Shown here: positions 49,543 to 50,648 of the stretch, in pieces
Layout: each line of letters begins with the position of its first letter
Position numbering within the stretch: the stretch's first letter is position 1
Assembly (NCBI GenBank): GCA_945861625.1
Contig: CAMAVI010000007.1
Coordinates: forward strand, 1 to 64,000
Direction of reading: 5' to 3'
DNA: 64,000 nucleotides
Source of the DNA: Candidatus Sulfopaludibacter sp. SbA3
GTDB lineage: Bacteria > Acidobacteriota > Terriglobia > Bryobacterales > Bryobacteraceae
Position numbers and translations under genes: made by a program
Notes under the pieces: generated by a model
The model's input: the letters and a program-made list of their open reading frames with translations, nothing else
Databases searched by the model: none
What the model was told of the DNA's origin: nothing

Positions 49543-50313
49543 CTATTTGGGGGTAGGAGTGTCGGGAGTCGAGTGTTCGGGCTCGCGAACAACAACCGCC
49601 GCGCCCGCTTCCTTGCGGACCCGCATGGAAAGTTCGTTGGCCTGATCCAGCGTCAGCTCGCGGCCTACCAGGACCCGCCAGAGATTCCTGTCGCCGGCCA
49701 GCACCCGCGCATCCATGAAAATTGCTTCCAGATTCGCCCGCAAGGATTCCGCGCGGTTCGCATCCGCGAACGCTCCGGCTTGCACTGCATATCCATCCAT
49801 GGCCACACTGGCGCCCGGAGCATGGACGGCGGGCGCGGTACTCGTGGCGGCAGGAACCGCTTGCCGATCCTGCCGTTCATGCGCCACTTCCTTTGGCGGA
49901 GCGATCACTCGTACGCGGACGCGCGCGGTGCCGGAACGGAGCATGTCGATGTCGCGCGCGGCGGCTTGCGAAAGATCGATGATGCGTCCGCGCACGAACG
50001 GACCACGGTCGGTGATGCGCACGCCGGTGCTTTTTCCATTCGACAAGTTGGTGACCTCGACCCAAGTTTGGAAGGGAAGTTTGCGATGCGCGGCGGTGGC
50101 GGCATTCATGTCGAAGACTTCGCCGGAAGCCGCGCGGCGGCCGTGATAGGGAATTCCATACCAGCTTGCGACGCCGGTTTCGATTGTGCCGATGCGCGCC
50201 GGAGCTGCCGGACTTTTCGCGCGCGTGTAATGACGTCCGCAACCGGACACGCTGATGATCAAGATCGCGAGTAGCGCGAAACCCGCATGAACCGGCCCTC
50301 GCAAGCGACTCAT
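49543..50313 (-). CDS. rlpA: RlpA-like lipoprotein with double-psi barrel and SPOR domain
   Basis: 256 residues from ATG 50313 (AGGTGG lies 11 bases upstream; GTG 50328 is an alternative). A lipoprotein signal ends in SVSG-Cys25. The RlpA barrel has GVASWYGIPYHGRRAASGE and the catalytic Asp in VRITDRGPFVRGRIIDLS. After a Pro/Ala linker a C-terminal SPOR domain (GYAVQAGAFADANRAESLRA) binds denuded septal peptidoglycan. RlpA proteins are septal lytic transglycosylases in some species and inactive scaffolds in others. Confidence 0.92.
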   Translation of the reverse strand: MSRLRGPVHAGFALLAILIISVSGCGRHYTRAKSPAAPARIGTIETGVASWYGIPYHGRRAASGEVFDMNAATAAHRKLPFQTWVEVTNLSNGKSTGVRITDRGPFVRGRIIDLSQAAARDIDMLRSGTARVRVRVIAPPKEVAHERQDRQAVPAATSTAPAVHAPGASVAMDGYAVQAGAFADANRAESLRANLEAIFMDARVLAGDRNLWRVLVGRELTLDQANELSMRVRKEAGAAVVVREPEHSTPDTPTPK

Positions 50314-50424
50314 GATGTCTGGATCCACCTAAAACAATTCTACTCGTCTATGTTTTTATCGTGTGAGTGCTCTTTCGCGCGCGGCGCGACGCGAGCGACG
50401 CGAACGGCGATGTGCATTTTTTTC

Positions 50425-50453
50425 TTGACATTCACAGCAATCCACCTTATAAA
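50425..50453 (+). promoter_or_regulatory. Consensus sigma70 promoter of the lysine-rich microgene
   Basis: TTGACA (50425-50430), a 17-base spacer, and TATAAA (50448-50453). It is the best promoter in the window and predicts a start near 50460 and a 55-base leader to the ATG at 50516. Confidence 0.8.
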
Positions 50454-50515
50454 GGGGACACAAGCGCGTTCTCTCACGAGTGGCGCGTATTTTGATGTAA
50501 AGGGAGAATCACCAA

Positions 50516-50581
50516 ATGAAATTCGCAACCAAGAAGAAAGCGGCCCCGAAAAAGAAAGCTGCTGCCAAGAAGAAGAAGTAG
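50516..50581 (+). CDS. 21-residue lysine/alanine-rich microprotein, undescribed
   Basis: The ATG is preceded by AGGGAG with 9 bases between. The 21 codons give 11 Lys and 6 Ala plus single Met, Phe, Thr and Pro, with no acidic residue, in KKKAA-type repeats like histone H1 tails. A TAG follows and then a strong terminator at 50615-50648. A consensus promoter stands at 50425-50453. The complete set of signals makes this a real transcription unit of about 190 bases. It might neutralise nucleic acid or membranes, or the RNA itself might be the product. Too short for usual gene callers. Confidence 0.65.
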   Translation: MKFATKKKAAPKKKAAAKKKK

Positions 50582-50614
50582 CTTCACGGGCTCGCAATAG
50601 CGAGTTTGACCAAC

Positions 50615-50648
50615 CGGCCCCGAGCAATCGGGGCCGTTCTTATTTTGT
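50615..50648 (+). terminator. Intrinsic terminator with GNRA tetraloop
   Basis: A perfect 9-bp stem (CGGCCCCGA with TCGGGGCCG) around a GCAA loop, followed by TTCTTATTTT. A smaller stem CTCGC-aata-GCGAG precedes it at 50591-50604. It ends the lysine-rich microgene and overlaps the stop codon of the convergent thioredoxin gene. Confidence 0.88.

Follow-up and report, generated by a model that had tools for sequence, protein, structure and literature searches.

A lysine-rich microprotein gene with a conserved leader in Bryobacteraceae, and comparable units elsewhere in the class

A compact unit between rlpA and a thioredoxin gene

The window, which is the whole 64-kb stretch of DNA that was analyzed, contains an rlpA-like gene and a thioredoxin-like gene, both on the minus strand, and the 311-base gap between them (given as 312 bases in the original prediction) holds a unit on the plus strand. 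It starts with a T-rich tract and the promoter elements TTGACA-17-TATAAA; a hairpin and the ribosome site AGGGAG precede the 21-codon frame, which is followed by a second hairpin and a GCAA-loop terminator. The coordinates of these features, and of the upstream neighbor, are as follows.

50418..50453, + strand: promoter, with a T-rich tract (50418-50424), −35 box TTGACA (50425-50430), 17-base spacer, and −10 box TATAAA (50448-50453)
50464..50488, + strand: 5′ leader hairpin GCGCG...CGCGT, in the minimum free energy (MFE) fold of 50461-50645; located at the probable 5′ end of the transcript, as judged from a predicted start site
50501..50506, + strand: ribosome site AGGGAG, 9 bases 5′ of the ATG
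50516..50581, + strand: microprotein gene, 21 codons and TAG, product MKFATKKKAAPKKKAAAKKKK as read from the frame
50587..50608, + strand: 3′ UTR hairpin CGGGCUCGC-AAUA-GCGAGUUUG, in the MFE and centroid folds of the single sequence
50615..50645, + strand: intrinsic terminator with a GC-rich stem, a GCAA (GNRA) loop, and a T-rich tail; the stem-loop itself spans 50615-50636
49543..50328, − strand: rlpA-like gene (DPBB_1 and SPOR domains, Pfam 1.7e-25 and 1.3e-10), the divergent upstream neighbor, given as a context marker outside the unit

When the sequence was re-read, the promoter, AGGGAG, the 21-codon Lys-rich frame, and the GNRA-loop terminator of the original prediction were all present and in the right order, and two features that it did not mention came to light: the leader hairpin at 50464-50488 and the hairpin at 50587-50608, between stop codon and terminator. 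The 21-residue product contains 11 Lys and 6 Ala and not a single acidic residue.

Each of these signals had been claimed to be among the best in the window. This holds for the promoter, which, scored over 12 positions with at least 4/6 in the −35 box and a spacing of 16-18, reaches 11/12 and is the sole site of at least 10/12 on both strands of the 64 kb, and for the frame, since no other ORF of 10-60 aa in the window reaches 35% Lys. In 2 kb, 4 terminators were listed (2.9 expected by shuffling), and the unit's own has more GC pairs than the other three. A promoter scanner run on a 2-kb region around the locus found none (0.7 expected); it omits the present promoter because the sixth base of its −10 box, TATAAA, is not the T that the scanner demands.

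Occurrence in Bryobacteraceae and selection on the frame

We quantified the occurrence of the unit with R1, a covariance model of 82 positions that runs from the −10 box to the sixth codon and was built from 76 leaders. In a class sample of 220 genomes, which includes genomes that helped build R1 and relatives of these and for which E-values are rough, R1 found exactly one match per genome in 46/47 Bryobacteraceae, and it also matched genomes from two other families, f92 (four genomes) and f95 (one). The frames behind all 46 matches were read, and they are Lys-rich and 20-114 aa long in 44, the remaining two genomes (G041 and G153) having lost the frame. G097, the only Bryobacteraceae genome of the sample that R1 did not match, is from g41, the genus of these two. 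The 114-aa product, MATKKPNDAPA..., is that of G007, where the leader has diverged and no promoter of the TTGAC/TATA type was seen on reading the locus. We propose to define the Bryobacteraceae MK-x-AT family by an R1 match and a Lys-rich frame behind the ribosome site; the window has both, its R1 match (E 4.7e-15) by construction, being a row of R1. A DNA search returned 160/200 Bryobacteraceae genomes at E ≤ 0.01, a count that may include hits in longer genes with Lys-rich stretches, some of which were indeed observed; the prevalence given here is therefore the R1 count. A pattern scan of the phylum matched 3/396 genomes, all of the window's genus, in a sample nearly devoid of other Bryobacteraceae.

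Losses are found in genus g41, where R1 matches 13/19 genomes and none of the other 6. The frame is intact in 10 of the 13 (19-52 aa). In the other three (G041, G153, and G179; loci L401, L400, and L398), promoter, hairpin, and ribosome site are retained and the frame has been deleted or shortened, in three different ways. The three losses, together with the 6 genomes without a match, indicate that the protein is dispensable in g41, where either the gene is decaying or its RNA is useful without the peptide. The losses look recent.

Two further loci, titled Bordetella and Acidimicrobiia (L074, on CALQCC020000009.1, and L072), carry the Bryobacteraceae unit beside rlpA, and the L074 protein is that of G024, a genome of the window's genus. 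These are probably mislabeled metagenome bins.

For sequence comparison, 138 rows were collected by pattern, and four of them (L077, L096, L106, and L119) were discarded, being chance hits on frames of another kind. The rest yielded 109 distinct complete ORF sequences encoding 71 proteins, one of which is encoded by 11 different DNA sequences. Correctly spaced TTGAC and TATA elements precede 109 distinct Bryobacteraceae leaders; one locus, L102, an f92-type sequence at a contig end, has none on its contig. A terminator lies ≤140 bases from the stop codon at 99/105 distinct Bryobacteraceae loci, with a GNRA loop in 44 of the 99.

Ratios of nonsynonymous to synonymous change (pN/pS) were then determined by ungapped comparison within length classes, leaving out ORFs cut by contig ends and including L102. 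For frames of 21 aa, the length of the window's own, pN/pS is 0.243 (n = 19 distinct ORFs), against 0.95 and 2.35 in the shifted frames. The values for the other classes are 0.056 at 19 aa (n = 4 sequences), 0.190 at 20 aa (n = 22), 0.247 at 22 aa (n = 15), and 0.225 at 23 aa (n = 16), with weaker constraint at 24 aa (0.411, n = 7) and 25 aa (0.383, n = 4). In the same alignments, the +1 and +2 frames give 0.61-2.95, one value being undefined. The true constraint is probably stronger than these figures, since shifted repeats raise pN when sequences are compared without gaps. The microprotein frame is thus under purifying selection at the protein level. Conservation of the RNA without the frame, which was to have counted against the original prediction, is contradicted, as the frame is conserved too (0.06-0.41 vs. 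0.61-2.95 when shifted). A chance ORF is ruled out by this codon-level selection and by the Markov controls, since in 50 first-order Markov windows ATG frames of 18-60 aa never reached 50% Lys.

What is conserved is a plan rather than an exact sequence. The usual protein starts with MK[N/S/T/Y/F]AT, continues with KK(A/P) repeats, and mostly ends in KKK or KKKK; start variants are MM, MR, MKNAA, and MATKK, and complete frames in the pattern set range from 18 to 120 aa. It is Lys density and clustering that are maintained, not exact order, and this explains why orthologs retain MK-x-AT and the Lys-rich end around a middle that lengthens and shortens in KKA/APAKK units. The likeness to a bare histone H1 tail, noted originally for the window's product, agrees with these Lys/Ala/Pro repeats.

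In some genera (L039, L111, L113, L136, and similar loci), the unit has expanded to 60-120 aa of AAPAKK repeats, with promoter, leader, and rlpA neighbor retained. These longest versions might have a function beyond the reach of those of 11-21 aa.

Leader RNA and gene neighborhood

The leader was analyzed in an alignment of 76 of the 109 distinct leaders, with L102 excluded here as well as from the hairpin and terminator analyses. The consensus hairpin has 8 pairs, 6 of which show changes on both sides. It is paired in 94.0% of cells, compared with 85.6% in shuffles and 21-61% when the structure is slid along the alignment, and its covariation score is 0.355 vs. 0.197, with 0/500 shuffles as high; pairing was tested on the very alignment that had supplied the structure, which favors the latter. 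The hairpin leaves the ribosome site uncovered in the consensus. GGGAGAAT is invariant in the 76 aligned leaders, but it is contained in the pattern by which they were collected. More generally, the pattern by which most loci were collected prescribes the ribosome site and some of the initial codons, and conservation there is partly built in; the variants AGGAGAA and CGGAGAAC occur at other loci.

These properties raise the alternative that the functional product is a structured RNA of ~185 bases, dual-function or noncoding, to which the frame is secondary. Besides the covarying hairpin, it would account for the folding of the whole transcript (50461-50645), which is better than that of shuffles (z −2.8, 0/200 as good, with the terminator contributing), and for the three g41 genomes in which promoter, hairpin, and ribosome site persist although the frame is no longer intact. 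However, substitutions are mostly synonymous, leader sequences vary between genera whereas the protein plan stays constant, and the three frame losses are mutually different and look recent. A known RNA family was rejected, since Rfam 15 returned no match in the window at gathering score; a permissive search of five loci gave 5 matches, all below gathering score. We therefore regard an RNA as the main product as quite unlikely. It had also been suggested that the peptide could be a side product of a small RNA, which codon-level selection makes improbable, although the leader itself is conserved as structure and outlives the frame in three g41 genomes.

A second alternative, that the frame is a Lys-codon leader peptide attenuating a downstream gene, is suggested by the succession of Lys-rich frame and terminator and can be judged from the neighborhood. 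An rlpA gene lies upstream on the opposite strand at 77/115 loci including the window (within 0.4 kb at 76 of them and 1.9 kb away at L041), with a sigma-54-type regulator beyond it at 62/115. Thioredoxin, galU, and motB genes are found at 8, 9, and 2 of the 115 loci, respectively. These counts include L102, and contig ends hide some neighbors. None of the five genes was detected in the fetched flanks of the MKSATKKAAPKKK... loci or near 11 loci from families f92-f96 and f3. The first downstream gene, as estimated from the longest ORF, is on the opposite strand in the window and at 60/85 relatives' loci (same strand at 25/85), which argues that there is no conserved downstream gene under regulation. 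Few loci share the downstream genes of the window, and the frame can reach 120 codons. Attenuation, contradicted by a changing and mostly convergent downstream gene, is thus very improbable.

Lysine-rich micro-units in other families and their possible role

Several further families of the same class have comparable free-standing units, down to MAAKKKAKKKR. Family f92 encodes MKCATKKAAAKKKPAAKKKGK and similar products, the MKxATKK pattern being present in 5/7 sampled genomes. Further examples are MKCATKKPAKKKAKKK in f95, MKKSATKKAPKKKAAKKKKR in f94, the 11-aa MKKKAAKKKKK in f96, one 63-aa frame in f93, MKKAPAKKKATKKKK and MATKKAPAKKKATKKKK in f3, MAKKPAKKAAKKKK in f89, a 26-aa frame in f98, MATKKKAKKKKH and others in f2, MAAKKKAKKKKR and MPAKKKAAKKKR in f90, and a single candidate, MKKATKKAKKGSKKGC, in f91. 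In f90, KKKAKKK matched in 22/39 sampled genomes, and the one locus read in each of 16 of these 22 was free-standing in every case (16/16), with 11-12 codons and promoter- and terminator-like sequence by eye; these frames differ so little in DNA that they are barely informative about codon selection. Six loci read in f2 gave five micro-units and one match within a large gene. At seven further loci (one each in f3, f98, f96, and f91 and three in Bryobacteraceae), the match lay within longer frames, and one more locus was the f95 unit already given. None of the patterns tried revealed a micro-unit in f88 (8 genomes, same order), f97 (1 genome), or f99 (1 genome).

Outside the class, a Lys-rich pattern was present in 24/79 genomes, and most matches at the 30 loci read belong to chance frames or to longer proteins. 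In six genomes there are short frames that stand free, for example MAAKKKAAKKKATKKKK (f52) and MAKKKKAAKKKRKAAKKKGAKKR (f30), one of them (L328) without an ATG. Another pattern, in the 30 loci read, mostly met MAAKKKE/D-type stretches of larger genes and was left uncounted.

Common descent, as judged from sequence, is supported only for Bryobacteraceae, f92, and f95, since composition alone cannot demonstrate descent beyond them. The expectation that homologs might be missed across the phylum was thus right insofar as homologs exist and similar units occur in several families, but the reach of common descent is narrower. Because these genes are very short and of low complexity, annotation and BLAST filters may miss them.

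Family f90 has a second type of Lys-rich unit, of 11-12 codons, in which a CTCCTT-type stretch complementary to a GGAGG-type ribosome site lies just before the terminator at L277/L428 (the same place), L280, L281, L416, and L426. In single-sequence folds, the two are not consistently paired, so that control by folding back is at most a putative mechanism; a comparable stretch was seen at only 10/114 loci in Bryobacteraceae. Some genomes of the class contain two different Lys-rich micro-units with unlike leaders, namely G727 (L254 and L260), G627 (L245 and L283), G606 (L246 and L284, the latter frame read without an ATG start), and G612 (L247 and L257).

Database searches returned no family for these proteins. 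Pfam gave no match for the 21-aa product, and its HC2 profile (PF07382) none for the 92- and 87-aa relatives or the 20-aa L046 protein either. Neither NCBIfam, including NF038053 (hist_H1_lk_Burk), for the window, L046, L098, and L111 proteins, nor PHROGs, for the window and L111 proteins, gave a family, and a PDB sequence search with the 21-mer found nothing up to E 10. A plasmid origin was rejected, since the window DNA has no plasmid match. So was a phage origin: 28 phage records match the DNA of L111, the 92-aa relative, but among the best 20 of the 28, none exceeds 34% query coverage, which we read as shared repeat composition. The window's genome encodes a separate 149-aa protein with a Lys/Ala/Pro-rich tail (L196, 464-910, minus strand, contig G000:C104), which scores below threshold with HC2 PF07382 (17.5 of 40 bits) and NF038053 (15.6 of 80 bits).

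Among known systems, the closest description is that of AlgP from Pseudomonas aeruginosa. AlgP has 352 aa with a predicted helical N-terminal domain of 124 aa. Peptides derived from its C-terminal Lys/Ala/Pro repeats are reported to bind DNA, and the protein to be associated with polyphosphate granules, whose spacing depends on it (PMC9239181). The same study compares AlgP with the histone H1 tail, and in Lys/Ala/Pro composition both resemble the microprotein (PMC9239181). Unlike AlgP, the microprotein is a 21-aa tail alone, with its own MK-x-AT start context and leader: its frame begins 9 bases after its own ribosome site, and a folded N-terminal domain of the AlgP type is absent. Unlike H1, it has no globular domain, and homology is not implied. 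The histone H1 tail is intrinsically disordered. The HC2 (PF07382) and hist_H1_lk_Burk (NF038053) families are likewise Lys/Ala-rich and H1-like, but their profiles do not match the microprotein. The Chlamydia proteins DdbA and HctA are also small and basic, a likeness of description; HctA binds DNA and is reported to condense the genome, and HctA and DdbA are said to be regulated by the RNA IhtA (PMC8343073). A literature search found no description of the present microproteins. Lys-rich, H1-like bacterial proteins are thus known; new, as far as our searches go, is a microgene that encodes the tail only and has a conserved leader.

On balance, we lean toward the view that the unit is a free-standing gene for a Lys-rich microprotein, a well-expressed cytoplasmic polycation that would bind nucleic acid in the manner of a bare H1 tail. 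Promoter, leader, and terminator would drive strong, steady expression, and the 5′ hairpin may shield the message from decay. The product, with a charge of about +11 in 21 residues and no hydrophobic stretch, is predicted to be unstructured and cytoplasmic and to condense on polyanions, its main target presumably being nucleic acid (DNA and/or RNA, ribosomes included). There it might screen charge as the C-terminal tail of H1 does, a gene-encoded counterpart of polyamines. By sequence, the unit has a near-consensus promoter and a good Shine-Dalgarno site, ends in a strong terminator, and requires no downstream gene. That known Lys/Ala/Pro repeat domains of bacteria bind DNA, as reported for C-terminal peptides of AlgP, counts for nucleic-acid binding (PMC9239181). 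We favor a role based on charge over one based on shape, given the freely varying middle and the like composition elsewhere; that products in other families share little but this Lys-rich composition fits such a role.

Two other partners for a real protein deserve consideration. If the main partner were the ribosome or rRNA, the product would be a tiny accessory basic protein, and other very small ribosome-associated proteins of comparable size exist. In favor are the size and charge of the product, the occurrence of just one leader match per genome, the presence in nearly every sampled genome of the family, and signals that look constitutive. Yet ribosomal proteins tend to conserve exact sequence and length, whereas here the middle varies freely and lengths span 18-120 aa; moreover, the gene is being lost in g41, and the neighbors tested (rlpA, sigma-54 regulator, trx, galU, and motB) are non-ribosomal. 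This makes a dedicated ribosomal role rather unlikely. Action on polyphosphate or storage granules instead of DNA is retained as a rival because AlgP, with its Lys/Pro/Ala C-terminal domain, is reported to be associated with polyphosphate granules and needed to space them (PMC9239181). We consider it unlikely, since AlgP carries an additional 124-residue N-terminal domain and the neighbor genes tested do not indicate polyphosphate.

Returning to the nucleic-acid-binding polycation, a broader proposition, which we regard as evenly balanced, is that "tail-only" H1-like microproteins are widespread in Acidobacteriota. These would be nearly pure Lys/Ala chains of 11 to ~26 residues, encoded in hairpin-led units, would rank among the smallest conserved free-standing proteins, and could act as encoded polyamines that set the charge balance of nucleoid or ribosome.

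H1-like Lys-rich domains are known within larger bacterial proteins such as AlgP, and here the tail alone is the gene. The unit is present in 46/47 sampled genomes of Bryobacteraceae, a soil family, with the frame in 44, and comparable genes of 11-12 codons occur in family f90 of the same class (16/16 loci read). These microproteins suggest that one kind of tiny bacterial protein has been overlooked. Should the peptides indeed bind DNA, RNA, or ribosomes inside the cell, they would offer a minimal system for asking what share of H1-like function is due to charge alone, and, should such binding prove true, a test case for the minimum length of a conserved gene.
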